From: Actinomycetota bacterium
GTDB lineage: Bacteria > Actinomycetota > Acidimicrobiia > Acidimicrobiales > CAIXPF01
DNA: 38,796 nucleotides
Direction of reading: 5' to 3'
Assembly (NCBI GenBank): GCA_016870475.1
Contig: VGBO01000017.1
Location: forward strand, 1-38,796
Part shown: positions 7,182 to 26,671 of the stretch, one piece after another
Numbering within the stretch: position 1 is the first letter of the stretch
Layout of the letters: each line of letters begins with the position of its first letter
Notes under the pieces: generated by a model
Told to the model about the DNA's origin: nothing
The model's input: the letters and a program-made list of their open reading frames with translations, nothing else
The model's database searches: none
Program-made: the position numbers and the translations under genes

Positions 7182-7730
7182 GTGGAGGGGACCGGGCCGG
7201 CCGACGGTGACGACGTCGAGACCGCCCTGCGCGAACTGCTCGCGCCGGACACCGTCGCAGCACGGGCACGGGAACGCCGACACCGCGAACGGCTCGCGGC
7301 GGCGGTCACCTTCGAGGGTGTCGTGGCGGCGACGCGTTCGACCGGCGCGACGGTCGACCTCGGCACCCGTGGCGGGCACCGATTCCGTGGCACGGTCGCC
7401 GACGTGGGCACCGGGGTCGTCACACTGCGGACCGCGCCCCGACGCATCGCGCTCGTGGTCGTCGACGCGATCGTGTCGCTCCACGCGCCGGGTGTCGGCC
7501 CCCTGCACGACGATGAGCCGCCGACGGCGCCGGTCGAGCTCGCCGACCTGCTGCTCGAGGCCGCGGCCGACCGGGCGGACGTGGTGCTGCACCTCGTGGA
7601 CGGCTCGGCGATCAGCGGGGTGCTGCACGGCTGCGGCATCGACGTCGTGTCGATCCGGTCGGGCGCCACAGATGTGGTCTACGTGCGACTCGCCTCAGTC
7701 GACGGGGCCTCGCTCACCGGCTCCGGATAG
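7182..7730 (+). CDS. Uncharacterised protein, beta-rich C-terminal half
   Basis: I do not recognise this 182-residue protein. I chose the GTG at 7182 because it lies 7 bases after a TAGCGT box; a GTG at 7173 in the same frame would add three residues. It begins with an acidic helix (ETALRELLAPDTVAARARER). Two similar halves follow, rich in short beta strands with Gly turns: AAVTFEGVVAATRSTGATVD then FRGTVADVGTGVVTLRT, and VVLHLVDGSAISGVLHGCGI then DVVYVRLASVDG. The pattern resembles small beta-barrel (SH3/LSm-like) folds, which is inference only. No signal peptide or membrane helix is present. The 3' end overlaps the convergent HTH gene by 52 bases. Confidence 0.65.
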   Translation: MEGTGPADGDDVETALRELLAPDTVAARARERRHRERLAAAVTFEGVVAATRSTGATVDLGTRGGHRFRGTVADVGTGVVTLRTAPRRIALVVVDAIVSLHAPGVGPLHDDEPPTAPVELADLLLEAAADRADVVLHLVDGSAISGVLHGCGIDVVSIRSGATDVVYVRLASVDGASLTGSG

Positions 7731-7930
7731 AGGTGCTCGAGGGTGCCCGGTTCGATCCGGCACGCCTCGATGAACGCATCGACCTCGTCGGCCTTGAGCC
7801 GGATCACCCGGCCGAACCGGTAGGCGGGGACCTGCCCCTCGTCGATGAAGCGGTACAGGGTGCGGGGCGTCACGCCGAGCCGGCGCGCGGCCTCGGGCGT
7901 ACTGAGCCAGACGATGTCCGCCGCTGCCAT
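7679..7930 (-). CDS. Excisionase-type helix-turn-helix DNA-binding protein
   Basis: This is an 83-residue DNA-binding protein of the MerR-like/excisionase HTH_17 family. The domain is at residues 7-56: LSTPEAARRLGVTPRTLYRF is the helix-turn-helix, and IDEGQVPAYRFGRVIRLKAD is the wing that ends before a C-terminal helix. Such proteins are usually transcriptional regulators; no integrase is nearby, so a role in excision is unlikely. The ATG lies 9 bases after a TAGTGT box. The 17-residue Ser/Glu-rich tail is encoded in the overlap with the convergent gene. It is divergent from the Tad cluster and could regulate it, although no operator was identified. Confidence 0.82.
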   Translation of the reverse strand: MAAADIVWLSTPEAARRLGVTPRTLYRFIDEGQVPAYRFGRVIRLKADEVDAFIEACRIEPGTLEHLYPEPVSEAPSTEASRT

Positions 7931-7945: not shown

Positions 7946-8075
7946 CCCACGCCGGCGCACGCGCCGAAGGGACATGCTAGACACCGACATGATCTGAGAC
8001 CACACCACATCGCAGGAGCCGGTACCAGGGGGTGCCGTCCTGCCACACGACGTCTCGTTGCCGGAGGGGGCATCG

Positions 8076-8762
8076 ATGGTCACCAGAGGTTCTGCGGCTC
8101 CTGCCGTTGCGTCGTCGATCGCGTCGAGGCTCGCCGTCAGCAGGCGACGAGCTCCCGCCCTGCGGCCGGCCGTCGGTGCGCTGCTCGTGCTCACCGCAGC
8201 GGTCGGCGCTTTCGCCGTGAGCGGCGACGGCACCGAGCGCGCCACGACCACGTATCTGACGACGACCCGGGCGCTGCGACCGGGCGACAGGATCACCGTC
8301 GACGACGTCGCCGCCGTCGCGATCGACCTGCCCGCCGCCCAGCGTGCCGGCGTCGTGACCGACTCGGCGGCGTTGCGCAACGCCGTGGTGCGCCTTCCCG
8401 TCGGCGCCGGGGCGCTGCTCTACGAGTCCGCGCTCGACCGCGGGTCCGGGGCCTCGACGACCGCCTCGTACCTCGAGCTCGCCGTCGCACTCCCCGCCGC
8501 GCGGGCCGTCGCCGGTCGTCTCGCCCCGGGTGATCGCGTGCACGTCTACGCATCGGACCGGGAGCGCACCCAGCTCGTCGCCGAGGCGGTCACGGTGCTC
8601 GACCTCGGCACCGACGACGGCGCCTTCGTGCGGACCGGCGAAGTGCTCGTCACCCTGGCGCTCCCCGACGAGGCCACCGCCCGAGCCGTGACGCAGGGCG
8701 CGCACGGCGACGGCATCACGCTGGTGCGCGCCAACCGGGCGGGCGATCCGTGGTCGCCGTGA
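8076..8762 (+). CDS. CpaB/RcpC-like SAF-domain protein of the Tad cluster
   Basis: This is a membrane-anchored SAF-domain protein at the head of the Tad pilus cluster. The start is the ATG at 8076, preceded at good distance by GGAGGGGG; a TTG at 8058 is less likely. Of 228 residues, a basic N-terminus precedes one membrane helix (about 33-50, PAVGALLVLTAAVGAFAVSG). A SAF domain follows (about 58-130, TTRALRPGDRITVDDVAAVA), then a region like the CpaB C-terminal domain (LAPGDRVHVYASD). CpaB normally works with an outer-membrane secretin, which a monoderm lacks. In actinobacteria the family is kept and probably acts in the cell envelope. The stop overlaps the next start. Confidence 0.8.
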   Translation: MVTRGSAAPAVASSIASRLAVSRRRAPALRPAVGALLVLTAAVGAFAVSGDGTERATTTYLTTTRALRPGDRITVDDVAAVAIDLPAAQRAGVVTDSAALRNAVVRLPVGAGALLYESALDRGSGASTTASYLELAVALPAARAVAGRLAPGDRVHVYASDRERTQLVAEAVTVLDLGTDDGAFVRTGEVLVTLALPDEATARAVTQGAHGDGITLVRANRAGDPWSP

Positions 8763-10015
8763 CCGCCCGCTACGTTGTCCTCGGGCTCGCCCGGCCCCGC
8801 ACCCCGTGGTTCGGCGAGGTCGGCGCATGGTCAGCCGGGGGCGCCACACCGGTCGACTTCGTCCGCTGCCTCACCGCCGAAGAGGTCCGCGCCCGACTCG
8901 CCGGCGGGCAGCGCATCTCCGCGTTGCTCGTCGACAGCCGGGCGCCCGGCCTCGACCGTGACGTGCTGAACAGCGCCCGCCGGGCCGACGTCGCGGTGAT
9001 CGTCGTCGACGACGGCGCCGTCGACCGGGACTGGCACGCCATCGGCGCGACCGCTGTCCTCCCTGCGCCCTTCGTCGAGGACGACCTCGTCGCCCTCCTC
9101 GCCGACCACGCCCCCGCCGTCCCCCCGACCCCCTTGCCCGGACCCGGAGCCGATGGACCGACCGAGCGCGTCGGTCGCCTGATCGCGGTGACCGGCAGCG
9201 GTGGATCCGGCACATCCGTGCTCGCCATGGCCCTCGCCCAGCACCTCGGAGGACGCACGCACGGCGACGTGCTCCTCGCCGATCTCGCCCTCGACGCCGA
9301 CCAGGCGATGCTGCACGCCGCACCCGACGTCGTGCCCGGCCTCACCGACCTCGTCGAATCCCACCGCCTCGGGACACCCGATCCCTCGGCCGTGCGCTCG
9401 ACCACCTTCGAGGTGCACGGCCGCCACTACCGGCTCCTGCTCGGGTTGCACCGACACCGGGACTGGGCGGACCTTCGCCCGGCGAACGTCGCGGCGACCG
9501 TCGACAGCCTGCTCCGGGAGTTCCCCACCGTCGTGGTCGACGTCGACGCCGACGTCGAGGGCGCCCGCGACTGCGGGGTCGTCGAGGTCGAGGAACGCAA
9601 CGTGCTCGCCCGGACCGTGCTCGGACGCGCCGAGGTCGTCATCGTCGTCGGCAACGGCGGCACGAAGGGGATCCACGCGCTCACCCGGACCCTCCAACGG
9701 CTCGCTGCGTTCGGCGTCGAACCGACCCGGACGATCCCCGTGCTCAACGGCAGCACCGGGATCGGCCAGCGGTGGCGGCGCGCGCCGCAGGCCATCGACG
9801 ACCTGGTCGCGGAGGCTGGCGACGACCTGCGACGGAGGACCGTGACCGTCCCCTGGCACCGCGGCGTCGAGGCGGCCCTGCGCGACGGCGGACCGCTCCC
9901 CCGCGCGCTGGGCGCACCGCTCGCCGCCGCACTCGCGACCACGGCATCCGCCGGCCGGAGTCACCGGGAGGAACCGGTGCCCGTGCCGGCCGTCGCACCG
10001 GGGCGGCCCGGATGA
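8759..10015 (+). CDS. TadZ/CpaE-like MinD-superfamily protein lacking the P-loop lysine
   Basis: This is a cytoplasmic protein likely to place or organise the Tad machinery. I start it at the GTG at 8759, which overlaps the previous stop (GTGA); a GTG at 8750 adds three residues. The N-terminal 130 residues look like a degenerate receiver-like domain (ISALLVDSRAPGLDRDVLNS, VAVIVVDDG). A Pro-rich linker precedes a MinD/ParA-like domain. Its P-loop reads TGSGGSGTSVL (about 145-155), where the usual Lys of GGxGK[ST] is Thr, so normal ATP hydrolysis is doubtful. Downstream are LLADLALDADQAMLH and VVVDVDAD. Atypical P-loops are known in TadZ and in actinobacterial Ssd-like proteins. Confidence 0.82.
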   Translation: MTARYVVLGLARPRTPWFGEVGAWSAGGATPVDFVRCLTAEEVRARLAGGQRISALLVDSRAPGLDRDVLNSARRADVAVIVVDDGAVDRDWHAIGATAVLPAPFVEDDLVALLADHAPAVPPTPLPGPGADGPTERVGRLIAVTGSGGSGTSVLAMALAQHLGGRTHGDVLLADLALDADQAMLHAAPDVVPGLTDLVESHRLGTPDPSAVRSTTFEVHGRHYRLLLGLHRHRDWADLRPANVAATVDSLLREFPTVVVDVDADVEGARDCGVVEVEERNVLARTVLGRAEVVIVVGNGGTKGIHALTRTLQRLAAFGVEPTRTIPVLNGSTGIGQRWRRAPQAIDDLVAEAGDDLRRRTVTVPWHRGVEAALRDGGPLPRALGAPLAAALATTASAGRSHREEPVPVPAVAPGRPG

Positions 10016-11313
10016 CCACGCCTGCGCCACCGACCCCGCTCCAGGAGATCGAGCGGGCGGCGCGCGTCCGTGCCGATGCCGCTGCGCTCGACATGAACGA
10101 CCCCGACGCCGCTGAACGTCTGCGCGCCATCATCGCCGAGGAGGTCGCCCGCTGGAACGACGACCAGCGTCGCGGCCGACACAGCCATCGCTTCCCCGAC
10201 GAGCACGCGATCGTGACCCGTGCGTTCCGCAACCTCGCAGGGTTCGGCCCGCTCGAACCGCTCCTCGACGACCCCGACGTGTGGGAGATCATGGTCAACG
10301 CCCCCGACGCCGTCTTCGTGCGACGCCACCGGGCGCCGTCGGGCTACCACGAGGAGTCCTTCCACGACGACGACCACGTCGCCCGCACCCTCAACCGTCT
10401 CCTCGACGCGGCGGGAACCCACCGCAAGCTCGATCCGGCCGAAGGCCTCCAGGACGCGCAATTGGCGAGCGGCGCACGCGTCCACGTCGTGCACCGCGAC
10501 CTCACCGCGGGAGCCCACCTCGTCGTCAACATCCGCAAGTTCACCGGCGTCGCCGTCCGGTCCCTCGACGAGCTCGTGGCGCTCGGGACGCTCGACGCCG
10601 CCAGCGCCGCCGTGCTGCGGGCGGCGGTGCGGGGCCGCCGGTCGATCGTGTTCAGCGGTGCGCCCGGCTCGGGCAAGACGACGCTGCTCTCGTGCTGCGC
10701 CGCCGAGCTCGACCCGTCGCTCCGGGTCGTGACGGCCGAGGAGGTGCTCGAGATCGACATCCCCGTGGCGAACGTCGCGTCCCTGCAGACGCGCGCCGCC
10801 CGGAGCGACCGCGAGGCCGTCGACCTCCGTCGCCTCGTCGCGGGATTCCTGCGCATGTCACCCGACATCGCGATCGTCGGCGAGGTCCGCGACCGGGAGG
10901 CCCTCCCGCTCCTGCTCACGCTGTCCTCGGGCGTGACCGGCTACACCACCATCCACGCGGCGTCGGCACGCCAGGCACTGACCCGCCTGCGGTTCGTCGC
11001 CCAACTCGCGGACGGCGGGGCATCGCTCCCCGCGCACCCGCTCACGACCCTCGTCAGCGAGACCGTGGACCTCGTCGTGCACTGCCGTCGTGGTCCCTCC
11101 GGACCCGTCGTCGAGGAGATCGTCGCCGTCGAGGACCTGCTGACGACCGGCGAGGCCGCGCCGTTCACCGTGACCGAGCTCTTCCACCGCCCGACCCCCG
11201 AGACCGGACTCCGCTGGACCGGCACCCTGCCGATCCGGCTCTGCCGTCGACTCGAGCGCCACGACGTCGACCTCCGCACCATGTTGCAGAACCTCCCCGA
11301 ACGGGAGGACTGA
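10012..11313 (+). CDS. tadA: Tad secretion ATPase TadA/CpaF
   Basis: This is the hexameric cytoplasmic ATPase that powers Tad/Flp pilus assembly. The ATG at 10012 overlaps the previous stop (ATGA) and gives 433 residues; the open frame runs farther upstream but would lie inside the TadZ gene. The N-terminal domain includes FGPLEPLLDDPDVWEIMVN (78-96). The ATPase core has Walker A GAPGSGKTT (216-224) and an acidic box with MSPDIAIVGEVRDREAL (282-298). A His box follows (GYTTIHAASARQALTRLRF). All catalytic motifs appear intact, so this motor should be active. It is followed by tadB with a 1-base overlap. Confidence 0.94.
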   Translation: MTTPAPPTPLQEIERAARVRADAAALDMNDPDAAERLRAIIAEEVARWNDDQRRGRHSHRFPDEHAIVTRAFRNLAGFGPLEPLLDDPDVWEIMVNAPDAVFVRRHRAPSGYHEESFHDDDHVARTLNRLLDAAGTHRKLDPAEGLQDAQLASGARVHVVHRDLTAGAHLVVNIRKFTGVAVRSLDELVALGTLDAASAAVLRAAVRGRRSIVFSGAPGSGKTTLLSCCAAELDPSLRVVTAEEVLEIDIPVANVASLQTRAARSDREAVDLRRLVAGFLRMSPDIAIVGEVRDREALPLLLTLSSGVTGYTTIHAASARQALTRLRFVAQLADGGASLPAHPLTTLVSETVDLVVHCRRGPSGPVVEEIVAVEDLLTTGEAAPFTVTELFHRPTPETGLRWTGTLPIRLCRRLERHDVDLRTMLQNLPERED

Positions 11314-12200
11314 TGACCACCCGACTGCTCCTCGCCATGACCGCTGCGCTCGGCGCGGCGCTCCTCGTCTGGACGCCGCACCTCCGCCTGCGCGACGACG
11401 CTCGCCCGGGTTCCGCACCATCGGGTCGTCACGGGCGGTCCGGCCGGGGCCGGGACCGCAGCGGTGATGCGCCGGTCCCGCTGCTGATCGTCGCCTCCCT
11501 CGCCGTCGGCGGCACCGGCGCGGTCGCCGGCCTGGTCCTGCTCGGTGGACCGGTCGCCGCCCTGCTCGGTACCGGCGCCGGAGCGGTGCTGCCCGTGGCG
11601 CAGCTCCGGTTCGCCCGAGCGGCCCGGCGAGCCCTCGTCGCCGAGGCATGGCCGGGCGTCGTCGAACACCTCCGCGTGGAGACCCAGACGCTCGGCCGGT
11701 CGATCCCCCTCGCCGTCGCCGACCTCGCCACCGTGGCGCCCGCCGGGCTGCGCCCGACGTTCGAGGCCGCCCGACGAACCTGGCGGCTCACCGGGGACCT
11801 CGGTGCCACGCTCGACGTGCTCCGCGACGGCTTCGCCGACCCCGGCGTCGACATGACCTGCGAGGTCCTGCTGCTCGCCCATGAGCTCGGTGGATCGAGC
11901 CTCGACCGGCGACTCCGCGACCTCGCGGAGGATCGTCGGACAGAGCTCGCCCAGCGACGGGAGGCCCGGAGCCGCCAGGCGGGCGTCCGGCTCGCCCGGA
12001 ACCTGGTGCTCGTGGTCCCCGTCGGCATGGCGGCCGCCGGTTCGATGATCGGGAACGGCCGCTCGGCGTACGCGACCCCCGGCGGCCAGCTGGTCATCGG
12101 GGTCGCAGCGCTCCTCATCGCCGTCTGCTGGTTCTGGTCGTCCCGCTACCTCCGGCTGCCGGCACCGCCGCGCCTGTTCCGCAACGGGGCCGGGGCATGA
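11313..12200 (+). CDS. tadB: Tad inner-membrane platform protein TadB
   Basis: This is one of two membrane platform proteins (type II secretion F family) that TadA acts on. The start ATG at 11313 shares one base with the tadA stop (TGATG), and GGGAGG lies just upstream. The 295 residues have an N-terminal membrane helix (5-22) and a Gly/Arg/Ser-rich linker. A hydrophobic pair lies at about 57-92, followed by a cytoplasmic helical T2SSF domain with EAWPGVVEHLRVETQTLGRS and MTCEVLLLAHELGGSSLDRR. Two C-terminal helices complete it (LVLVVPVGMAAAGSMIG and LVIGVAALLIAVCWFW). It overlaps tadC by four bases. Confidence 0.88.
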   Translation: MTTRLLLAMTAALGAALLVWTPHLRLRDDARPGSAPSGRHGRSGRGRDRSGDAPVPLLIVASLAVGGTGAVAGLVLLGGPVAALLGTGAGAVLPVAQLRFARAARRALVAEAWPGVVEHLRVETQTLGRSIPLAVADLATVAPAGLRPTFEAARRTWRLTGDLGATLDVLRDGFADPGVDMTCEVLLLAHELGGSSLDRRLRDLAEDRRTELAQRREARSRQAGVRLARNLVLVVPVGMAAAGSMIGNGRSAYATPGGQLVIGVAALLIAVCWFWSSRYLRLPAPPRLFRNGAGA

Positions 12201-13102
12201 CCACCATCGCCCTCGTCGCGTGCGCGTCGGTCGCCTGGCTGGGCCTCGCGCTGCTCCTCGACTCGGTACCGCTGTTTCGGCGCCGCTCGCTCACCGACCG
12301 GCTCCGCCGATACGCCGCCGACCCGCACGTCGCCCGTCGGGCCGACGGCCCGGTCGGCATCGGCGCCCTCGAGGCGCTCGTCGGCCCGTGGCGCGCACCG
12401 CTGGGCTGCGTGCGGACGGCGTTCGCCACCACTCCGCTCGCGGTGCGTCTCGCTCGGGCCGGCCGTCCTGGCGATGTGGCGGGCTTCCGTCGCCGGCAGG
12501 CGAGCGGGGCGTTCGCCCTGGTGGTGCTGACCGTGCTGCTGGTCGCCGCCGGCGGCGCGCCACCGTGGGCGTCCCTCGTACTCCTCGGCGGGGCACCGTT
12601 CGTCGGCGCGGCGGTTCCGGGGCTCCTCCTCGATCGCTGCGCCGCGGACCGCCGGGAGCAGCTCTTCCACGAGCTTCCCGTCGTCGTGGAGCACCTCGGC
12701 GCGCTGATCGGCAACGGCTTCTCGGTCGGCGCCGCCGTGCAACGCCTCGCCCGACGGACCGAGGGTGTCGCCGCCGAAGATCTCGCTCGCGTGGCGAACC
12801 GGGTCCGCCAAGGCACCGCAGAGCGCGACGCCCTCGAGGAGTGGGCCCGCCTGTCCGGGCTCCCCGAGGTGCGACGGCTCGCCGCCGTGCTGGCCCTCGA
12901 CCAGCAGGGGGTCGACCTCGACCGCCTGCTCGCCCTCGAGGCCGAGGCCGCACGCCAGGAGGCGCACCGGCGTGCCGTGGAGACGATCGACCGGCGCACC
13001 CAGCTCGTGTGGATTCCCGTCACCGTCGCCGCCCTGCTGCCCGGGATGCTCCTGCTCGCCGTGCCCTTCCTCGCCGCCCTCGCCGACCTGTCCGTGCCCT
13101 GA
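12197..13102 (+). CDS. tadC: Tad inner-membrane platform protein TadC
   Basis: This is the second T2SSF-family platform subunit, expected to pair with TadB in the membrane. The ATG at 12197 overlaps the tadB stop (ATGA). The 301 residues have an N-terminal helix (3-22) and a hydrophobic pair at about 108-150. The cytoplasmic T2SSF domain includes LFHELPVVVEHLGALIGNGF (about 156-175), RTEGVAAEDLARVANRVRQG and RLAAVLALDQQGVDLDRLL. Last comes a C-terminal double helix (WIPVTVAALLPGMLLLAVPF). The next gene starts 22 bases downstream with its own strong ribosome site, which would allow more pilin to be made than platform protein. Confidence 0.88.
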   Translation: MTTIALVACASVAWLGLALLLDSVPLFRRRSLTDRLRRYAADPHVARRADGPVGIGALEALVGPWRAPLGCVRTAFATTPLAVRLARAGRPGDVAGFRRRQASGAFALVVLTVLLVAAGGAPPWASLVLLGGAPFVGAAVPGLLLDRCAADRREQLFHELPVVVEHLGALIGNGFSVGAAVQRLARRTEGVAAEDLARVANRVRQGTAERDALEEWARLSGLPEVRRLAAVLALDQQGVDLDRLLALEAEAARQEAHRRAVETIDRRTQLVWIPVTVAALLPGMLLLAVPFLAALADLSVP

Positions 13103-13124
13103 ACCGAACCGATGGAGGAGAACC

Positions 13125-13316
13125 ATGAACAACGAACGGATCCGATCGACGCTGTCGAGTCTGCGGGCCGATGACCGCGGCGAGGGGGTGATCTCGATGG
13201 CGATCGCCATGCTGATCGTTGCGTTCCTCGGCGTCGCCGCCTGGGTGATCTTCAGCAACGTGCTCGACGCCGCCGGCGAACGCGTGAAGGAACAGGTGGA
13301 ACAGGTCGGTTCGTGA
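13125..13316 (+). CDS. Small Flp-pilin-like protein
   Basis: This 63-residue protein is the best candidate for the major pilin of the cluster. A clear ribosome site (GGAGGAG) lies 4 bases before the ATG. A charged 19-residue leader ends in DDRGEG, followed by one hydrophobic helix (VISMAIAMLIVAFLGVAAWV) and a charged tail (AAGERVKEQVEQVGS). Size and layout match Flp pilins. The usual Glu-Tyr after the cleavage site is absent, however, so processing by a TadV/CpaA peptidase is uncertain. No prepilin peptidase gene is in the window. The stop overlaps the next start (GTGA). Confidence 0.75.
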   Translation: MNNERIRSTLSSLRADDRGEGVISMAIAMLIVAFLGVAAWVIFSNVLDAAGERVKEQVEQVGS

Positions 13317-13711
13317 GCACGGACGACGGCACCGGGCTGCTCGGCACCGCAGCCGGGTTGGTGATGGTGGTCGCCTTCCTGCTGCTCGCGATCGACACCG
13401 GCCTCACGCTGCTCGTGCGATCGACCGTCGGCGCAGCCGCCACCGACGCCGCCACCATCGTCGCCCGCGCCGCAGGACCGGACGGCGTTCTCACCACGGA
13501 CGAACTCGAGGCGGCGACCGTGCGCGCCCGGGACCGCGTCGACGCGCTCGCCGGATCGGCTGCGACCATGTCGCCACCGTCGTTCGACGGACGGAGCGGC
13601 TCGGTGACGGTGACCGTCCGCCGACCCGGACCGCGCACGTTCGCGGCGCTGCGCGCCGGTTCGGCGACCGTCGAGCGGTCGGCGACCGTCCGCCTCGAGG
13701 TGCTGCGATGA
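13313..13711 (+). CDS. TadE-like minor pseudopilin
   Basis: This is a 132-residue membrane-anchored pseudopilin candidate. The GTG at 13313 overlaps the pilin stop. A very short leader (MSTDDGTGLLGTAAG) precedes a long hydrophobic helix (LVMVVAFLLLAIDTGLTLLV). An extracytoplasmic domain with AAATDAATIVARAAGPDG and a beta-rich end (SVTVTVRRPGPRTFAALRAG) follows. The helix-then-Ala-rich pattern is that of TadE/TadG proteins, but similarity is weak and the role rests mostly on position. The stop overlaps the next gene (ATGA). Confidence 0.72.
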   Translation: MSTDDGTGLLGTAAGLVMVVAFLLLAIDTGLTLLVRSTVGAAATDAATIVARAAGPDGVLTTDELEAATVRARDRVDALAGSAATMSPPSFDGRSGSVTVTVRRPGPRTFAALRAGSATVERSATVRLEVLR

Positions 13712-14154
13712 GAGGACGTGCGGGGCACGATGCCGGCAGCATCGGCGGCGTGGAGGTCCTGCCGCTCTGCCTCCTCGTCCTCGTCGGATTCGCCCTCCTC
13801 CTCGCCAACGGTTGGGCGGTCGTCGACGCTCGCGGCGTCGCCGCCGATGCCGCTCGGGAGGCGGCCCGAGCGTTCGCTGAGGCGCCGGCAGACCTCGACC
13901 CCTGGGCCGAAGCGTCCGGCGCTGCGCTGCGCGCCGTGGACTCGACCGGCCGGTCGCGCCAACGGATCTCGGTGCGCATCGACGCCGTTGGACACCGCCG
14001 GTGCTCGCCGGTCACGGTCGAGGTCACCTACCGGGTACCGACGTCCTGGCTCCCCGGCACCTCCGGCGGGCCGCAGCTCGGCGTCGTCCGTGCCCGCCAC
14101 ACGACGGTGGTCGACCCCTACCGCAGCGGCCTGAGCGGTGACGGCTGTGGGTGA
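13708..14154 (+). CDS. TadE-family pseudopilin
   Basis: This is a 148-residue TadE-like protein, the most typical of the three pseudopilins. The leader ends in AGSIGGVEVLPLCLLVLVGF, which keeps the TadE pattern of Gly-Ser before a helix with an early Glu. The helix is followed by ARGVAADAAREAARAFAEAP, the usual Ala-rich amphipathic segment, and a beta-rich domain (RQRISVRIDAVG, CSPVTVEVTYRVP) with two later Cys. The ATG overlaps the upstream stop, and the 3' end overlaps the next gene by about 8-17 bases depending on that gene's start. Confidence 0.8.
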   Translation: MRGRAGHDAGSIGGVEVLPLCLLVLVGFALLLANGWAVVDARGVAADAAREAARAFAEAPADLDPWAEASGAALRAVDSTGRSRQRISVRIDAVGHRRCSPVTVEVTYRVPTSWLPGTSGGPQLGVVRARHTTVVDPYRSGLSGDGCG

Positions 14155-14572
14155 GGGCGACTGCGACCAGGGCACGGCGCTGCTCCTGGTCCCCACCGCC
14201 GTGGTGATCGTCCTCGTCGCCGCCGCGCTGGCTTTCGACGCGGCGCTCGCGTTGCAGGCAAAACGCGCACTGCTGCACGCAGCGTCCGGTGCCGCCAACG
14301 AAGCCGTCAGCCTCGGGGTCGACGAGGCCGCGCTGCATCGCACCGGGATGCTCTGCCTCGACCCGGCACGGGTGACCGATGCACTGGGCGCAGCGCTCGC
14401 CGATCGGTCGGAGGTGGACCTGCGCGCCGAGATCGGGCCGTCCGAATGCCCGCGGTCCGTGCGCGTCGACCTCACGGCGCCGGGTCCGCGACCGTTCCTG
14501 CGGCTCATCCCACCGGGGCGACCGACCACGGTGTTGCGCGCCCAGGCGACCGCCCACCTCGCCGAACGGTAA
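14138..14572 (+). CDS. TadG/TadE-like protein, Rv3654-type
   Basis: This is a membrane-anchored protein of up to 144 residues. Two in-frame GTG starts are possible (14138 and 14147); I give the longer. The leader GDCDQGTALLLVPTAVVIVL runs into a hydrophobic helix, then FDAALALQAKRALLHAASGAANEAV, the Tad_N/TadG-like pattern. A short extracytoplasmic part has two Cys (CLDPARV and SECPRSV) that could pair. It closes the overlapping part of the Tad operon, with 29 bases to the next gene. Confidence 0.7.
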   Translation: MTAVGEGDCDQGTALLLVPTAVVIVLVAAALAFDAALALQAKRALLHAASGAANEAVSLGVDEAALHRTGMLCLDPARVTDALGAALADRSEVDLRAEIGPSECPRSVRVDLTAPGPRPFLRLIPPGRPTTVLRAQATAHLAER

Positions 14573-14589
14573 TTGTCCGTGCTTTTCAG

Positions 14590-14595
14590 TATTCT
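14590..14595 (+). promoter_or_regulatory. -10 box (TATTCT) of the pseudokinase gene
   Basis: TATTCT lies 6 bases before the ATG at 14602, in a short AT-richer patch. It suggests an extra leaderless promoter inside the Tad cluster. The TTGTCC at 14575 is only 9 bases away, too close to serve as its -35. Confidence 0.5.
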
Positions 14596-14601
14596 TCATG
14601 C

Positions 14602-15522
14602 ATGTCCAATCAGCAGGCGGCGGGAACCCTCGCCGAGGTGACCGCGATTCGGCCCGACCAGGCCGTCCAACTCCTCGCAGATCTCTCGGCGACCCTCGCC
14701 GCATGTCACGAAGCCGGACGCAGCCATGGATCGATCGACCCCCGTCACGTCCGACCTGGGTCGACGGCGGGCCCGGCGCACCTGCTCGACTGGCCCGAGG
14801 ACGCGGGGGCCGAACGCATCGACGACGACGTGCGACAGTTCGGACTGCTCGTGGAGTTCGTGGCCGGGCGGATCGGCCCGAGCGGCCGCTCGCGCGGCGC
14901 TGCCGACCGCGTCCGCATGCAACTCGACGCTCTCGCCGCGACGACCGTCGACCCGGACCCGTCGCGTCGTCCCTCGATGGAGCAGTTCGCAACGGCGCTC
15001 GACGCCCTGCGGCGCCGGGCGACCACCGCGCCCGGCGCGGCGCCACGGCAACGGTCGCCGCGCACCCTCGGGATCGCTGCGGCGGCAGTCGCCGTCGCCG
15101 CGCTCGGTGCCACGGGCGTGCTCGTCGCCGGTCGCGGCGCCTCCGAGCCACCGACACCTCCCGACGTCCTCGCCCCGACGCCCACTGCCGTCGCTCCTAC
15201 CGCTTCCGAGCCCGTCGGTACGGGCTCACCGGGGCGCATCGAACGGAACGGTCGCGACTACGAGGCAGGGGCAGCCGGCGACCTCCTCGTCAACCTCGAC
15301 GCGGCATGCCCGGGCGGCCCGGTCGCCGTGCTGCTCGCGGACGACGACGGCGCCGTCATCACCTTCGACCGATGGCCCGACGGACCGCAGGGCGTGGAAG
15401 GACAGGTCGTCGGGACCGTGCCCGGAGCGATCGGCGCGACCGCCGACGACGGCTGCCGCTCCCTCGCCGTGCACCGGGACGTCGGCCTTCCCGTCGAGGT
15501 CTCGCTCGGGCGGCCCTCGTGA
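14602..15522 (+). CDS. Membrane-anchored degenerate protein kinase (C-lobe only)
   Basis: This 306-residue protein carries a reduced Ser/Thr kinase-like domain at residues 16-137. Only C-lobe landmarks remain. CHEAGRSHGSIDPRHVRP stands where active kinases have HRD...N (here HGS, and no Asn). LLDWPED stands at the DFG position. DDVRQFGLLVEFVAGR and DPDPSRRPSMEQFATALDAL match the usual late helices. The N-lobe, with its Gly loop and Lys, is missing, so catalysis is very unlikely. A membrane helix (about 156-176) follows, then a Pro/Thr linker and an outer domain with two Cys (AACPGG and DDGCRS). It overlaps the LysM gene (GTGA) and follows the Tad genes, which suggests an envelope scaffold or sensor. 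Confidence 0.75.
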   Translation: MSNQQAAGTLAEVTAIRPDQAVQLLADLSATLAACHEAGRSHGSIDPRHVRPGSTAGPAHLLDWPEDAGAERIDDDVRQFGLLVEFVAGRIGPSGRSRGAADRVRMQLDALAATTVDPDPSRRPSMEQFATALDALRRRATTAPGAAPRQRSPRTLGIAAAAVAVAALGATGVLVAGRGASEPPTPPDVLAPTPTAVAPTASEPVGTGSPGRIERNGRDYEAGAAGDLLVNLDAACPGGPVAVLLADDDGAVITFDRWPDGPQGVEGQVVGTVPGAIGATADDGCRSLAVHRDVGLPVEVSLGRPS

Positions 15523-16199
15523 ACGGCGCACGGTTCCGCCAGGTGTTGACCCTCGCCGCGGCGCTCGGTTGCGGCGCCGCCCTCCTCGGCAGCGGCGAAC
15601 GCGTCGGCCCGCTGCCGACGGACGCCGTGTCCCTGCTCCGCTCGGTCACCGCGCCGGACGGTCCGCTCGTCGTCCTCGCCGGCTTCCGTCTGCTCGGACT
15701 CGCCCTAGCCGTGCACCTGGCCTGTTGCAGCACCCTCGCCCTGCTCGGCGGACGGAGTGCCGTAGCTCGTTTCGCCGGTCGTGCCTCGCTCGGCCTGCTC
15801 GGGGGAACGATGATCGCCGCGGTCGATCCCTCGATCGGGCTCGCCGAGGAACGACCGGTCGCGATCCTGCGGCTCGTGGACCCCCGGACCTCGATCGGGC
15901 TCGCCACCGTTCCCGTCGAGCAGGTCGCCGTCGCCGGGCCCGAGTCCATCGACACCGGGCTCGAGTCCATCGTCGTCGACGACCCCACCCCGCGATCCTC
16001 CGGCGCCGGCCGCCACGTGGTCGTCGAGGGCGAGAGCTTCTGGTCGATCGCCGCCGACCACGCCGACGGACGACCCGTGGCGACTTACTGGCGGACCCTC
16101 ATCGAGGCCAACCGCAGCAGGCTCGTCGACCCGACGAACCCGGACCTGATCCACCCCGGGCTCGTCCTTGACCTCCCAGCGCCACCGGAGCCCCGATGA
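15519..16199 (+). CDS. LysM-domain membrane protein of the Tad cluster
   Basis: The protein has 226 residues with a C-terminal LysM domain at about 168-222 (HVVVEGESFWSIAADHADGR to HPGLVLDLPAP), expected to bind peptidoglycan. Ahead of it are hydrophobic segments at about 8-25, 45-68 and 78-95 and a low-complexity stretch with a repeated ESI motif (PESIDTGLESIVVDD). The GTG start overlaps the pseudokinase stop. LysM proteins often follow actinobacterial Tad genes; anchoring the pilus base to the wall is a reasonable inference but is unproven. Confidence 0.8.
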   Translation: MNGARFRQVLTLAAALGCGAALLGSGERVGPLPTDAVSLLRSVTAPDGPLVVLAGFRLLGLALAVHLACCSTLALLGGRSAVARFAGRASLGLLGGTMIAAVDPSIGLAEERPVAILRLVDPRTSIGLATVPVEQVAVAGPESIDTGLESIVVDDPTPRSSGAGRHVVVEGESFWSIAADHADGRPVATYWRTLIEANRSRLVDPTNPDLIHPGLVLDLPAPPEPR

Positions 16200-16210: not shown

Positions 16211-16247
16211 CCGGTCCGGAACGCAACAGCACACCTTGGGGGCAGGG

Positions 16248-17399
16248 ATGCGAGTCGGGGCGACGATCTTCAACCAGAACTACGCCGACTGGGACCGGTA
16301 CGAGGCGGAGGAGCGCGGCGAGTCCGTCCCGTCGCGGCCGGCGACGACCGACCGGCAGATCTTCGCCGAAGAGCTCGACATCGCCCGGATCGCAGACGAC
16401 GCCGGATTCGACTCGGTGTGGACGATCGAGCACCACTTCACGCCGTACACGATGGTCACGAACCCGCTGCAGTACCTCACCTACGTGGCAGGCATCACGA
16501 GCAGCGTCGACCTCGGCACGATGGTCACCGTGCTGCCCTGGCACAACCCGGTGCGCGTCGCCGAGGACGTGAACATGCTCGACACGTTCCTCGGCCCGGG
16601 TCGTGAGGTGATCTGCGGGGTCGGGCGCGGCCTCGGTCGACGCGAGTACCAAGGGCTCGGCATCGACCAGAACGAGGCCCGCGGGCGGTTCGACGAATCC
16701 CTCTTGGTGCTGCGCACGCTGCTCGCGACCGGAACGTGCACCTTCGACGGGGAACACTTCCAGGTGAACGACGTCCGCCTCCGCCCCCAGCCCGACCGGG
16801 ACCTCAGCGCGAACCTGTGGTGCGCAGGCGGCACGTCGGAGACCGTGGAGATCATCGCCCGCCACGACGTGCGGCCGCTGATCATCCCCACGACGTCACT
16901 CGACCTCGCGCTGCAGAACGCCCGGCGATACGTGCAGCTCCGCGCCGACAGCGGGGTCACCACACCCGTCGCCACGAAGCTCTCACTGTGGACCTACGTC
17001 GCCGAGACCGAGGAGGCCGCTCGCGAGGGCGCGGAGCGCTACATGGTGGAGTACGCCGACTCGGCGCTCCGCCATTACGAGCTACGCAACGATCACCTCG
17101 GCGACATCAAGGGGTACGAGGCGTACGCCGCGCAGTCCCGGGCCCTCGCCAAGGACGCGTCACCGTTCCTGCGGGGCTTCTACGGCTCCCACCCCTGGGG
17201 CACGCCGGAGCAGGTCATCGCCCGGGCGACCGAGCTCGCCGAGACGTTCGGCACGAACGAGCTCATGTTCGTGTTCCGCTACGGCGGCATGCCGATCGAA
17301 GCGGCGCGACGCAGCATGCGCCTGTTCGCCCGCGAGGTGCTCCCAGCGCTGCAGGCCATCGACCCGGCACCCCTCAGCGTCACCTCGCTCGCAGCCTGA
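16248..17399 (+). CDS. Luciferase-like (LLM) flavin/F420-dependent oxidoreductase
   Basis: This is a 383-residue bacterial-luciferase-like monooxygenase or F420-dependent oxidoreductase with a TIM-barrel fold; the substrate is unknown. Visible family blocks are ELDIARIADDAGFDSVWTIE with the following HHF, GTMVTVLPWHNPVRVAEDVN, the GVGRGLGRREYQGLG loop, RFDESLLVLRTLL and GTPEQVIARATELAETFG. FMN and F420 users cannot be told apart by eye. The ATG at 16248 has a G-rich ribosome site; a TTG at 16236 is less likely. It stands alone between the LysM gene and the convergent BldD-like gene, and a 7-bp hairpin separates the two ends. Confidence 0.87.
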   Translation: MRVGATIFNQNYADWDRYEAEERGESVPSRPATTDRQIFAEELDIARIADDAGFDSVWTIEHHFTPYTMVTNPLQYLTYVAGITSSVDLGTMVTVLPWHNPVRVAEDVNMLDTFLGPGREVICGVGRGLGRREYQGLGIDQNEARGRFDESLLVLRTLLATGTCTFDGEHFQVNDVRLRPQPDRDLSANLWCAGGTSETVEIIARHDVRPLIIPTTSLDLALQNARRYVQLRADSGVTTPVATKLSLWTYVAETEEAAREGAERYMVEYADSALRHYELRNDHLGDIKGYEAYAAQSRALAKDASPFLRGFYGSHPWGTPEQVIARATELAETFGTNELMFVFRYGGMPIEAARRSMRLFAREVLPALQAIDPAPLSVTSLAA

Positions 17400-17401
17400 G
17401 G

Positions 17402-17423
17402 CACCCGCCCGCGTCAGCGGGTG
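17402..17423. terminator. Hairpin between convergent genes
   Basis: CACCCGC at 17402-17408 pairs with GCGGGTG at 17417-17423 across an 8-base loop, between the LLM stop and the end of the BldD-like gene. There is no T tract, so termination strength is uncertain. Confidence 0.45.
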
Positions 17424-17938
17424 ACGCGAAGACCGAGCTCGTCGAGCCGCTCGACCGTGGCGTCGACCGGACTGCCGAGGATCGCCGCGATCGACCGCAG
17501 GTCGTCCCGACGAATCGTGATCTCGCGGCTCGTGAAGTCCTGTCGCATGATCTGGATGGTCGACAGGTACCGACCGAGCATCTCCGTCTCGGGACCCTCG
17601 AGCTCCTCGAGACGGTCGAGATCGATCGTCACCGCGTCACTCTGCTGCGCCCGGGCATCGGCAGAGGCCGCGGCGAACGCCGGCCCACGGTCGGCGGGCA
17701 GCAGCTGATCGACGGGCACGGCGTAGAACCGGGCGAGTCGCTGCAGCCGGGGAACCGAGATCGCCCGCTCGCCACGCTCGTAGGCGCCGAGCACCGACGC
17801 CTTGAACTCCTGCGCGGACGCCGCCTCGACGTCCTGCAGCGAGAGCCGCTTCTGGCGTCGGATCACCCGAAGCCGTTCACCCACCTGCATGCCGTACTGC
17901 GTCGGCACCTCGGCACTCGCTGCGCGTTCGCTCACCAT
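17414..17938 (-). CDS. bldD: BldD-like transcriptional regulator with c-di-GMP-binding signature
   Basis: The 174-residue protein matches Streptomyces BldD from end to end. It has an N-terminal XRE helix-turn-helix (residues 19-81: GERLRVIRRQKRLSLQDVEA, KASVLGAYERGERAISVPRL, FYAVPVDQLLP). A variable linker leads to a C-terminal domain (104-172). In Streptomyces that domain binds tetrameric c-di-GMP through an RxD-X8-RxxD motif. Here Arg132-Gln-Asp134, eight residues, then Arg143-Arg-Asp-Asp146 reproduce it exactly. BldD represses developmental genes when c-di-GMP is high; the targets here are unknown. The start is the ATG at 17938; an upstream extension is unlikely. It is convergent with the luciferase-like gene, and rsmE lies upstream on the same strand. 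Confidence 0.9.
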   Translation of the reverse strand: MVSERAASAEVPTQYGMQVGERLRVIRRQKRLSLQDVEAASAQEFKASVLGAYERGERAISVPRLQRLARFYAVPVDQLLPADRGPAFAAASADARAQQSDAVTIDLDRLEELEGPETEMLGRYLSTIQIMRQDFTSREITIRRDDLRSIAAILGSPVDATVERLDELGLRVTR

Positions 17939-17964
17939 CGGACCCCTACTCCGCACAGCCGGAC

Positions 17965-17977
17965 GCGCGTGACGCGC
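17965..17977. promoter_or_regulatory. Inverted repeat upstream of bldD, possible operator
   Basis: GCGCGT, one base, ACGCGC forms a perfect 6-bp inverted repeat 27-39 bases before the bldD start. It could be an autoregulatory site, but it does not clearly match the published Streptomyces BldD box. Confidence 0.3.
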
Positions 17978-18030
17978 ACGCCGCCCGGCCCCTACGAGCG
18001 GTGAGGTTAGGCCGCACCCCTCCCGGTCGG

Positions 18031-18729
18031 TCAACCGCGCTGCGTGGCGGAGCGGGCGAGCGACAGCATCGCTGCGCCGACGACCGCTGCGGTCTCCACC
18101 CGGAGGACGTGCGCGCCCAGCGTGACCGTCGGCAGCCCGCACCCGAGCTCGGCGTCGCTGAAGCCGCCTTCAGGGCCCACGATCAGGCATCGCACGCCGG
18201 CGTCGACGGCCACACCCCCGGGGGCGGCGAGCGCGGCCCCTTCGAGACGCACCGCATCGGCGAAAGGGATCGGTCCGTGCACGACGGGAAGGAACGCCCG
18301 TCGGCTCTGCGCCGCAGCCGCCCGTGCGATCCGGTCGAGGCGTTCGACGTTGCGCTGCACCTTGTCGGCCGCCCAGGTCACCACCGACCGGTCGACGAGC
18401 AGGAGCTGAAGGTCGTCGACACCACACTCGGTGGCCTTCTGCACCGCCCACTCGGTGCGGTCGCCCTTCACCACCGGCATGCAGATCCTCACCCGGTGCG
18501 GTGGCGCGGCCTCCCGGCACACCGGACCCGTCGGGCGGACCGAAGCGCCGAGAACGGCGCGGCGCCAGGCGCCCGCCCCGTCGCAGAGCACCACGTCGGC
18601 CCCGTCACGCAACCGGAGCACCCGCCGCAGGTGGTGCAGATCGTCGTCGGCGACCGTCGGCTCGTCGCCGTCCACCCCGGCCACGTACAACACCGGCCCG
18701 CGGGAGGACCGCAGGTCGCTCCCCTCCAC
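18031..18729 (-). CDS. rsmE: 16S rRNA m3U1498 methyltransferase RsmE
   Basis: RsmE methylates N3 of U1498 in 16S rRNA, using S-adenosylmethionine in a SPOUT (trefoil-knot) fold. The 232 residues have the N-terminal PUA-like part (DDLHHLRRVLRLRDGADVVL). The knot follows with PVVKGDRTEWAVQKATECGV, LIVGPEGGFSDAEL and VTLGAHVLRVETAA. The start is a GTG at 18729; a later GTG (residue 13) is possible. It lies 17 bases behind dnaJ, as in the hrcA-dnaJ-rsmE order of other actinobacteria. Confidence 0.94.
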   Translation of the reverse strand: MEGSDLRSSRGPVLYVAGVDGDEPTVADDDLHHLRRVLRLRDGADVVLCDGAGAWRRAVLGASVRPTGPVCREAAPPHRVRICMPVVKGDRTEWAVQKATECGVDDLQLLLVDRSVVTWAADKVQRNVERLDRIARAAAAQSRRAFLPVVHGPIPFADAVRLEGAALAAPGGVAVDAGVRCLIVGPEGGFSDAELGCGLPTVTLGAHVLRVETAAVVGAAMLSLARSATQRG

Positions 18730-24088: not shown

Positions 24089-24094
24089 AACCTA
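24089..24094 (-). promoter_or_regulatory. -10 box (TAGGTT) of holA
   Basis: TAGGTT on the minus strand lies 8 bases before the holA ATG. Its first three bases are the comEC stop codon. The matching -35 position falls inside the 17-bp inverted repeat at 24109-24149. Confidence 0.55.
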
Positions 24095-25996
24095 GCGGGG
24101 CGGCAGGTCGTCGACGGCCGAGGCTTCGCAAGAGCCTCGGCCGTCGACGGCGAACGACGTCGTCCCCGACCGGACCGAGGCCGTGAGTTCGACGTCGTCG
24201 ACGACGAACCGGGCACCGTCGGCGGGTGCGACGAACCGTTCGTGACGCGCCGGGCCGAGGACGAGCGGCGGGTCGAAGCGTTCGAGGAGCGGTTCGACCG
24301 CACGGACCGCCGTCGGCGACGCCGTGGAGAGGGCGAGGACCTCGACGCGCCGCACGCCGGCGGCGCGAAGCTCACGCAACGTCCGGGCACTGTCGACCAC
24401 CCGATCGACGACGAGCACGGTGGCGCCCGACGTCGACGTCGCCGCACGCACCCCGGCTGGCAGGCCGCAGACCGGACCGGGGCCCGCGCCAGGAGACGTC
24501 GCCGCGACGACCGACCCGGCGATCACGAGCGCCATGCCGACCCGTGCGGCACGGCGCCGCGCCCCGACGCCGAGGACGACGATGCCGACGCCCGCAGCGA
24601 CGGTGGTGAGCGTCATCGGACCGAACATCCCGACCGGCAGTCCGGCGGACACCCGAGCAACGCCGTCGATCCAGCCAAGAGCCAGTCGACTCGGCGCATG
24701 CAGCACGCCGGCGACCGGTCCGCCGATCAGACCGGCGAGAAGTCCCACCGATGAGCCCCATGTCATCACGAACGCCACCGCAGGTTCGACGAGCACGTTC
24801 GCCGCCACCGCCACGACCGGCACGACACCCCCGGCCGCGAGCAGGAAGGGTGCCGTCGCCAGCTGCGCCACGATCGGGACGGCGACCGCCAGACGGAACC
24901 AGGTCGGGCCCCGCAGACGCTCCGCAAGAGGCGCCGCACCGACGATGATCGCCGCCGTCGCCGCCACCGAGAGCCTGAACCCGAGCGAGTGCACGAGGAG
25001 CGGGTCGACCACCACCAGTGCGGCGACGGTCACCGCAAGGATCCGTCGCGCTCCCGCAGGACGTCCGAGTGTCCACGCCAGGAGCGCGAACCCGGCCATC
25101 CCCACCGCCCGCAACACCGGCGGTTCGAAACGCGTAACCGTGGCGAACAGGCCGAGCACGACCGTGGCGATGCCGAACCGGGGCCACGGCCGAAGCCGCC
25201 GGAGGACCGGACTCGCGCCGAGGAGCACGAACGCCACGTTCTGCCCGGACACCGCAAGGAGGTGACCGAGGCCGGCCGCAGCGAACGCGTCGCGGACGAG
25301 CGGCCCCTGGTCGCGGTCGTCGCCGACGACGAGCCCCCGCAGGAGCGCGGCGTCGTCCTCGTCGAGGTCGGCGGCGCCCCGGACGAGCAGCCCTCGTAGC
25401 CACGCCGCGATACGCCAGTGCAGCGCGCCGCGGTCGACCATGGAGGCCTCGTCCACCACGACCGCCGCGACAATCCGGTTCGCCGGCCAGGCGGCGATCA
25501 CGGCCCTCGAACGCGGGGCGAGATCCCCGGTGACGTGGAGCCGCGCGCCGGCGCCGACGCCGAGCAGGGTCGCCGCCGCAGGGCCGCGCGCTCGGAGCTC
25601 GACACGCCCCACGGCTGTCGACGCCCTCACCGTCGTCCCCGCGGTCGTCGCCTGCGGGTCGCCGACGAGGGTCACCGTGCCCGAGAACGGCCCGGGTTCC
25701 GGCGGCCGCAGGCCGGCCCACGCGAAGGTCGCCGACCACGTGGCGAGCAGTGCGACAGCAAGGAGGGCGACGCCTCTCGCCCGCGCTCGCGTGGCGATCG
25801 CCACCAGGCCGACGAGCACCGGGCCGACGAGCACCGGCCAGGCGTCGACCTCCGCGCCCGCCGCCGTGTCGGCCCGGTGACCGGAGGCCCACCAGGCGCC
25901 CACCCAGGCGGCGATGGCGAACCCGCAGACCATCCGGTCGCTCCACGCCCCCGACTCCCCCGCGACCGTGGCCCTCTCGGCCGGCGACCCGGTCAT
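24092..25996 (-). CDS. comEC: ComEC-like DNA-uptake channel with degenerate nuclease domain
   Basis: This is the membrane channel that moves transforming DNA into the cytoplasm. The ATG at 25996 overlaps the comEA stop (ATGA) and gives 634 residues. An N-terminal membrane region and OB-like domain (about 25-190) precede the competence domain with GLGHLLAVSGQNVAFVLLGA and many helices (about 230-520). The C-terminal part resembles the usual metallo-beta-lactamase domain (VLVVDRVVDSARTLRELRAA, then GVRRVEVLALSTASPTAVRA). The metal-binding THxHxDH is replaced by STASPTA and the domain is short, so nuclease activity is very unlikely. It precedes holA, as in mycobacteria. Confidence 0.88.
   Translation of the reverse strand: MTGSPAERATVAGESGAWSDRMVCGFAIAAWVGAWWASGHRADTAAGAEVDAWPVLVGPVLVGLVAIATRARARGVALLAVALLATWSATFAWAGLRPPEPGPFSGTVTLVGDPQATTAGTTVRASTAVGRVELRARGPAAATLLGVGAGARLHVTGDLAPRSRAVIAAWPANRIVAAVVVDEASMVDRGALHWRIAAWLRGLLVRGAADLDEDDAALLRGLVVGDDRDQGPLVRDAFAAAGLGHLLAVSGQNVAFVLLGASPVLRRLRPWPRFGIATVVLGLFATVTRFEPPVLRAVGMAGFALLAWTLGRPAGARRILAVTVAALVVVDPLLVHSLGFRLSVAATAAIIVGAAPLAERLRGPTWFRLAVAVPIVAQLATAPFLLAAGGVVPVVAVAANVLVEPAVAFVMTWGSSVGLLAGLIGGPVAGVLHAPSRLALGWIDGVARVSAGLPVGMFGPMTLTTVAAGVGIVVLGVGARRRAARVGMALVIAGSVVAATSPGAGPGPVCGLPAGVRAATSTSGATVLVVDRVVDSARTLRELRAAGVRRVEVLALSTASPTAVRAVEPLLERFDPPLVLGPARHERFVAPADGARFVVDDVELTASVRSGTTSFAVDGRGSCEASAVDDLPPR
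24109..24149. repeat. Perfect 17-bp inverted repeat at the comEC 3' end
   Basis: CGTCGACGGCCGAGGCT (24109-24125), a 7-base loop, and its exact complement (24133-24149) form a very stable hairpin within the last codons of comEC, 15 bases from the holA -10 box. No T tract follows on either strand. It may be an attenuator, a protein-binding site or a terminator-like element. Confidence 0.8.
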
Positions 25997-26625
25997 ACGC
26001 GCACCGAGGGCCGGATCGTGGCGAGCTTGGCGGGCCCGATGCCGGGTACGTCGAGCAACTCCTCGACGGAACCGAAGCGCCCCACACGGGTGCGGTGGGT
26101 GATGATCGCTGCCGCGGTGCTCGGCCCGACGCCCGGCAACCGCTCGAGCTCGGTGGCCGTCGCCCGGTTCAGGTCGAGCGGGAGCCCGCCCGCAGCGTCG
26201 CCGCCGAGTTGCCCCGGGGCAGCGACGGGCTGCGCCGGTTCCCCCGGCGCAGGAATGTGCACGCGTACCCCGTCGACGACGACCTGCGCGAGGTTCACCC
26301 CGGCGAGGTCGACCGGCGGACGCACCCCGCCGGCGGCGCGCACGGCGTCGGCGACACGCGCCCCGGCGGGAACTTCGACGAGGCCGGGCTGCACGACCGC
26401 GCCACTGACGTGCACCACGATCGGTGGCGGCGGCGCCGTCGTGGTCGTGACCCGCACGACCCGCGGGAGCGGCGTGGCGGGTTCCGGCGCCGAGCGCACG
26501 ACCACCACGGCGACCGCTCCGGCGCCGAGAGCGCCGACGAGCAGCGCGGCGACGGCACGCCGATGAGCCTCGACGACGTCCCGAACCACACCATGGAGGT
26601 CCGACATCCGATTCTGACGTGCCAT
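25993..26625 (-). CDS. comEA: ComEA-like DNA-binding protein
   Basis: This is an envelope DNA receptor that feeds DNA to ComEC. I choose the ATG at 26625, 8 bases after GGGAGG, giving 210 residues; a GTG at 26643 adds six. A cytoplasmic stub precedes one membrane helix (about 25-45, AVAALLVGALGAGAVAVVVV), then a Thr/Pro linker. A SLBB-type domain follows (VVHVSGAVVQPGLVEVPAGA to LAQVVVDGVRVHIP), then a double helix-hairpin-helix DNA-binding domain (LDLNRATATELERLPGVGPS and LLDVPGIGPAKLATIRPSV). It is the complete and usual ComEA layout, operonic with comEC. Confidence 0.92.
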   Translation of the reverse strand: MARQNRMSDLHGVVRDVVEAHRRAVAALLVGALGAGAVAVVVVRSAPEPATPLPRVVRVTTTTAPPPPIVVHVSGAVVQPGLVEVPAGARVADAVRAAGGVRPPVDLAGVNLAQVVVDGVRVHIPAPGEPAQPVAAPGQLGGDAAGGLPLDLNRATATELERLPGVGPSTAAAIITHRTRVGRFGSVEELLDVPGIGPAKLATIRPSVRV

Positions 26626-26671
26626 CGCACGCACCTCCCGCACCGCGGGGCCGAATCGGGGAAGACAACGG

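Follow-up and report, generated by a model that had tools for sequence, protein, structure and literature searches.

Why does a Tad pilus locus end in a gene for a kinase-like protein that has lost its catalytic residues, followed by a gene for a LysM protein? To our knowledge, the anchoring and placement of Tad pili in one-membrane, thick-walled bacteria are little understood, and we know of few bacterial pseudokinases with a known function. We addressed the question for the window, i.e., the whole of contig 17 (38,796 bases, high-GC) of a 2.45 Mb assembly. PK denotes the protein or gene at 14602-15522, and LysM the partner gene at 15519-16199.

The window locus and its kinase remnant

A Tad/Flp pilus locus (8058-14572, + strand), with genes for TadA, TadB, TadC, CpaB, CpaE, a pilin and TadE-like proteins in order, lies directly ahead of the PK and LysM genes. 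The genes, with their neighbors on both sides, are:

7679-7930 (-): BldC-like HTH_17 regulator, 83 aa (HTH_17, 7.7e-15), divergent from cpaB, place conserved
8058-8762 (+): CpaB/RcpC (SAF; TIGR03177, 3e-10)
8750-10015 (+): CpaE/TadZ-like ATPase (position, P-loop, weak family matches)
10012-11313 (+): TadA/CpaF ATPase (T2SSE, 1e-34; TIGR03819, 1e-52)
11310-12200 (+): TadB (position; conserved)
12197-13102 (+): TadC (T2SSF, 2e-8)
13125-13316 (+): Flp-like small pilin, 63 aa, one helix (conservation in relatives)
13313-13711 (+): TadE-like pseudopilin 1, single helix (TadE, E 0.011, Pfam)
13708-14154 (+): TadE-like pseudopilin 2, single helix (order conserved in relatives)
14138-14572 (+): pseudopilin-like 3, single helix (no family match; place conserved)
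14602-15522 (+): PK gene, 306 aa (C-lobe remnant, membrane helix, outer domain)
15519-16199 (+): LysM protein, 226 aa, with N-terminal membrane segment(s) and a C-terminal LysM at about 16014-16178
17414-18142 (-): BldD homolog, conserved downstream neighbor (BldD-like_C, 1e-13; PDB 2ewt, 1e-16)

The earlier note had placed three pseudopilins before the kinase-like gene; all three are single-helix genes found in identical order in relatives, and only one of them matches TadE in Pfam (E 0.01). A luciferase-like (LLM) monooxygenase gene (16236-17399, +) separates the LysM gene from bldD, and none of the relatives' loci examined showed a homolog of it there. Beyond lepA and holA, at about 8-10 kb from the Tad-PK-LysM block on its downstream side, come comEC (24092-26065, -) and comEA (25993-26643, -), the latter adjoined by a gene (26705-27472, +) whose secreted product carries collagen-like repeats of the GxT/GxP type (Pfam Collagen, 1e-8). 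The nearby comEC and comEA genes possibly link the window Tad pilus to DNA uptake, a role it may have.

Three parts can be told apart in the window PK:

14623-15024 (+): kinase C-lobe remnant, aa ~8-141 (helix E, HGS, LLDWP near the DFG position, alpha-F Asp76)
15058-15129 (+): single transmembrane helix, aa about 153-176 (hydropathy; helix in the predicted model)
15229-15504 (+): outer beta domain, aa ~210-301 (invariant Cys236 and Cys285; DAACPG)

HRD is replaced by H42-G43-S44, the activation segment is absent, and nothing is encoded N-terminal to helix E, so there is no N-lobe. Without beta3 Lys, HRD Asp and Asn, the protein does not qualify as an active Ser/Thr kinase; an ordinary active kinase is ruled out by these residues together with the missing activation segment. 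In the predicted structure (mean pLDDT 79), helices E and F and two further helices of the C-lobe are followed by the single membrane helix and by an outer domain of 9 strands; the structure matches kinases in Foldseek with E 1e-4. The earlier note had described a catalytically dead, membrane-spanning protein with kinase C-lobe landmarks only, HGS in place of HRD, a membrane helix and an outer domain that carries two Cys, and had proposed structure prediction as a check. Sequence and predicted structure both agree with this description, as the model contains C-lobe helices only and no full active kinase fold, and the two cysteines, Cys236 and Cys285, are invariant in 33 aligned sequences.

With the window PK alone, Pfam gave no match (E up to 1) and NCBIfam only a weak MAD6 kinase match (E 0.005), so single-sequence searches are nearly blind for PK and the kinase reading rests on its relatives. 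The gene is an open frame with coding-type GC3 (0.83), and it keeps all of the invariant family residues H36, H42, D76, D227, C236, F255 and C285. At the relatives' DWxCDG site its outer domain has DAACPG, which makes it a more derived copy than most; judged from this substitution, the window copy may be decaying.

The PK family, its LysM partner and its active relatives

We surveyed 298 genomes of the order Acidimicrobiales, calling PK at a profile E of 1e-40 or better, and found it in 99 of them (the set includes a few intact kinases); many relatives in the order align with the window PK over its whole length. A 19-row alignment of relatives gave no conserved stretch, and a narrower one was used for the locus search. 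The relatives have a Hanks-type Ser/Thr kinase fold: a profile of 14 of them matched PpkA (9e-15) and PknB (1.6e-12) in PDB, and a structure predicted for one full-length relative, with mean pLDDT 84.5, matched PDB kinases in Foldseek with a best E of 2e-9. The stretch from the DFG position to alpha-F (activation loop and P+1 loop) is missing in the profile, and the predicted structure has both lobes, with alpha-F right after the DFG strands. The missing N-lobe pointed out in the earlier note is thus a property of the window PK but not of the family, in which most members keep a degenerate N-lobe with beta3 Lys and alpha-C Glu; contig-end cuts set aside, it is missing in few (the window, L038, L046 and L185).

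Catalytic residues were read in 128 homologs, 122 of which are readable at the C-lobe sites (6 are not). HRD Asp is present in 14 and absent in 108 of the 122, replaced mostly by Arg, Ala, Ser or Gln; the catalytic-loop Asn has become His in 106 homologs, and DFG Asp is kept in 11. Beta3 Lys is retained in 95/112 and HRD His in all 122 readable homologs. Only 4 of the 128 (L171, L180, L191 and L120) combine Asp, Asn and DFG Asp, and all four lie outside the tad/bldD slot. Two genomes, G163 (with L191) and G018 (with L171), encode both an intact kinase and a pseudokinase with the same outer domain. The outer-domain consensus of the family is GDWxCDGxxTPAxLRPxTGxV, and the domain is weakly FG-GAP-like (one member, E 0.043).

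The coupling to LysM put forward in the earlier note is found throughout the family. In the window, the PK stop codon (TGA, 15520-15522) overlaps the LysM start codon (GTG, 15519) by the four bases reported earlier (GTGA, 15519-15522). Among 127 distinct PK loci, LysM is adjacent on the same strand in 77, and 70 of these 77 pairs have the 4-bp overlap; the other 50 loci, some of them cut by contig ends, have no LysM. An accident of one genome is ruled out, since the pair recurs in many genomes. LysM partners have a common layout, with one or more membrane segments at the N-terminus, then a linker rich in Pro and Thr, and at the C-terminus a LysM domain, which in the window matches Pfam PF01476 with E 4e-5 (23.9 bits vs a cut-off of 20.9), and from this domain the protein would be expected to bind the cell wall. 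A related-locus search with the window LysM protein as query found none.

In a phylum sample of 297 genomes, there is one match outside the order, L198. This kinase is intact, with HRD, DFG and activation loop, shares the outer domain of PK, and adjoins a LysM gene, an HTH_17 gene and a full Tad operon. Other members of the sister order to which L198 belongs have Tad-LysM loci in which a kinase follows pseudopilin 3 and precedes LysM: the kinase of L227 is intact (its outer domain is not readable in its frame), and that of L228 is part-degraded. In L089, from an Egibacteraceae MAG, the gene immediately ahead of HTH_17-cpaB-cpaE encodes an intact kinase; its outer domain lies in a second frame, possibly through a frameshift or a fault of assembly. 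PK probably derives from a Tad-linked active kinase, as intact kinases with the same outer domain stand beside the same Tad and LysM genes. From these sequences, a history from an active Tad-linked receptor kinase to a pseudokinase and then to a copy without N-lobe is likely, with the direction inferred. A quick FastTree tree joins the window PK with family members L004 and L005 (support 89) and leaves the number of activity losses unresolved.

Linkage to Tad genes and an upstream repeat element

A close TadA was found in 111 of the 298 Acidimicrobiales genomes, 71 of which also have PK (odds ratio 10, p 6e-18 by genome, without correction for kinship); 28 of the 99 PK genomes have no close TadA, and 40 genomes have this Tad type without PK. 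Counted by family, PK and Tad are both present in 21, PK alone in 5, Tad alone in 12 and neither in 23 (p 6e-4). PK lies within 12 kb of tadA in 41 of the 71 genomes, mostly in the orientation of tadA and about 3.5 kb beyond it, a distance that equals the length of tadB-tadE3, and this close physical linkage is spread over 14 families. The earlier note had proposed a search for the pair beside Tad genes in relatives and named an absence of co-occurrence as what would speak against it; with PK and a close TadA together in 71 genomes, significantly so by family, such an absence is not seen. The commonest full arrangement is corC-ybeY-phoH-HTH_17 leftward, then cpaB-cpaE-tadABC-flp-tadE-PK-LysM rightward, then bldD-rsmE-dnaJ-hrcA-lepA leftward.

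The PK-LysM pair also precedes bldD in genomes with Tad elsewhere. Six loci (L045, L147, L174, L175, L182 and L143) keep cpaE, for the pilus-positioning ATPase, and PK with the rest of the Tad genes gone. Families f54, f16 and f3 have lost the close Tad but retain HTH_17 / cpaE-PK, and f3 retains LysM as well. The retention of cpaE-PK where the close Tad was lost suggests that PK is functionally tied to CpaE and not to the fibre of the pilus, and since PK persists without Tad, its main role may not be pilus-related.

Just upstream of most PK genes is an element with a period of about 10 bp, roughly TTTCATGNNN-TTTCATGTAT-TTTCA, which scores well upstream of about 75 of 101 members. The window has one copy:

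14584-14609 (+): 10-bp direct-repeat element copy (TTTCAGTATTCTTCATGCATGTCCAA), 11.6 bits with a model trained without the window copy

This copy overlaps the PK ATG, with TATTCT 6 nt before it, and may be a promoter/operator, possibly a leaderless promoter. A scan of 44 loci (714 kb) gave 53 strong matches, every one of them ahead of PK, cpaB or tadA (random expectation: none), including three labelled LysM that stand ahead of the PK-LysM pair; the PK matches are partly so by construction, as the model was built from PK upstream regions. A model built from loci away from Tad alone found the element in 18 of 41 Tad loci; the corresponding rates were 2.8% in local shuffles and 0.4% in random windows. 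L061 also has the TTTCATGTAT repeat ahead of both cpaB and tadA, and L148 has it ahead of cpaB. A strict Tad operon gene is ruled out by the element of its own and by the Tad-independent occurrence of PK; of the Tad coupling proposed in the earlier note, the recurrent association (71/99 genomes) stands, and strict operon coupling does not.

The HTH_17 gene divergent from cpaB is conserved across the order, and its product in the window is a short HTH_17/MerR-like protein of the BldC regulator type, which makes it a candidate binder of the repeats. BldC of Streptomyces, likewise a small MerR-like HTH protein, binds AT-rich direct repeats head to tail, with the consensus AATTXXXX(C) as compared to TTTCATGTAT with a 10-bp period in the window locus (PMC5859096). 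No BldC structure is among the PDB matches of the window HTH_17 protein.

Proposed role, alternatives and known systems

The reading that we favor, with a probability of about 0.45, is that PK and LysM form a non-catalytic membrane scaffold pair, derived from a Tad-linked kinase and expressed from its own promoter, that ties CpaE and the Tad apparatus to the wall. It builds on the catalytic decay, the conserved pairing and overlap, the Tad linkage, the conserved repeats and the active relatives beside Tad, and from these we infer complex formation, contact with CpaE, a positioning role, the identity of the regulator and the active-to-dead direction. The earlier note had likewise suggested an envelope scaffold, one that would position the pilus or report on it. 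The two proteins would be translated together and form a membrane complex, in which the cytoplasmic kinase fold of PK would serve as a docking platform without phosphotransfer, the outer domain would probably be stapled by a disulfide, and the LysM protein would be the wall anchor. CpaE would be the cytoplasmic partner, as the retained cpaE-PK pair suggests, and the complex would tie the cytoplasmic CpaE/Tad apparatus to a wall site, in the manner of EssB/YukC in the type VIIb secretion system. An ancestral receptor kinase beside the same Tad genes would have lost activity and kept its docking and outer functions; in the window PK the N-lobe would have gone too, leaving the helical C-lobe as the platform. 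The pair would have its own promoter, to which the BldC-like regulator encoded at the locus would probably bind.

Tad may also be merely a neighbor, through an inherited slot before bldD, of a general envelope or cell-cycle sensor or scaffold that acts on wall synthesis or polarity, as the MviN pseudokinase domain does through FhaA. The pair does precede bldD-rsmE-dnaJ-hrcA-lepA with or without Tad, PK has its own upstream element, and the 28 PK genomes without a close TadA fit as well; however, the co-occurrence with this Tad type is significant even by family, the active relatives outside the order are also in a Tad neighborhood, and the repeat found upstream of PK also precedes Tad genes in L061 (cpaB and tadA) and L148 (cpaB), and we regard this explanation as rather unlikely.

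A decidedly unlikely one is that PK acts as a signalling partner, a heterodimer with an active paralog kinase that shares its outer domain, modulating that kinase and so controlling Tad genes. The two genomes that encode an intact kinase beside a pseudokinase agree with it, but the four kinase matches to an active member in the window genome stop before the outer domain, and no such paralog was seen there. That the window PK is a relic on its way out, with the LysM gene alone mattering, is suggested by the loss of the outer DWxCDG motif and by its place among the few members without N-lobe; the open frame with its GC3, the seven invariant residues and the preserved LysM overlap argue against it and leave it very improbable.

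Several described systems resemble the pair that we take as a scaffold. A solved precedent for a scaffold of this kind is EssB/YukC, which is unable to bind ATP and makes contact with every component of its secretion system (PMC9600267). Like PK, it joins a pseudokinase in the cytoplasm to an outer domain through a single membrane helix, is encoded in the locus of an envelope machine, and has degraded catalytic motifs and a short activation loop; the likeness is one of topology, however, as the machine (T7SSb vs a Tad locus), the outer domain and the phylum differ, and EssB was not seen among the matches listed for the PK profile or structure. Of the seven bacterial pseudokinase families listed in a review of 2025, ActPs3/MviN is also actinobacterial, with an activation-loop deletion, a membrane segment C-terminal to the kinase domain and a likely scaffold role (PMC12599244). 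Its listed members lack beta3 Lys and HRD His (PMC12599244), whereas in the PK family Lys, alpha-C Glu and His are mostly retained; compared by published description, the ActPs3 pattern of motif loss (VALT, L for His, no DFG) is not that of the PK family, and the outer domain and LysM partner differ as well. PknB-type receptor Ser/Thr kinases share fold and topology with PK, which unlike them has no catalytic residues, activation segment or PASTA.

Micrococcus luteus, like the window, has an HTH_17 gene divergent from cpaB-cpaE; mutations in this locus change com gene expression and transformation, and a PAS histidine kinase is reported beside the operon (PMC8467076). The earlier note knew of no described Tad system with the pair, and we found no description of the PK family or the PK-LysM pair in the literature searched (mostly open papers); on a pseudokinase with a Tad pilus, the one paper that turned up was a survey of T7SS, some of whose variants adjoin Tad loci (PMC11217815). 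PK would then be a Hanks-fold pseudokinase scaffold in a new setting.

More broadly, we put forward tentatively that a Tad (possibly DNA-uptake) pilus of Actinomycetota came with a dedicated receptor kinase, which in Acidimicrobiales turned into a pseudokinase scaffold with a co-translated LysM protein and BldC-type repeats, giving an undescribed pilus-positioning module of single-membrane bacteria. PK adds a family to the bacterial pseudokinases, and its natural series, from an active kinase through a dead one that keeps the N-lobe to a C-lobe alone, bears on what a kinase fold does after catalysis is lost. The PK-LysM module is a concrete candidate for the anchoring and placement of the Tad pilus.
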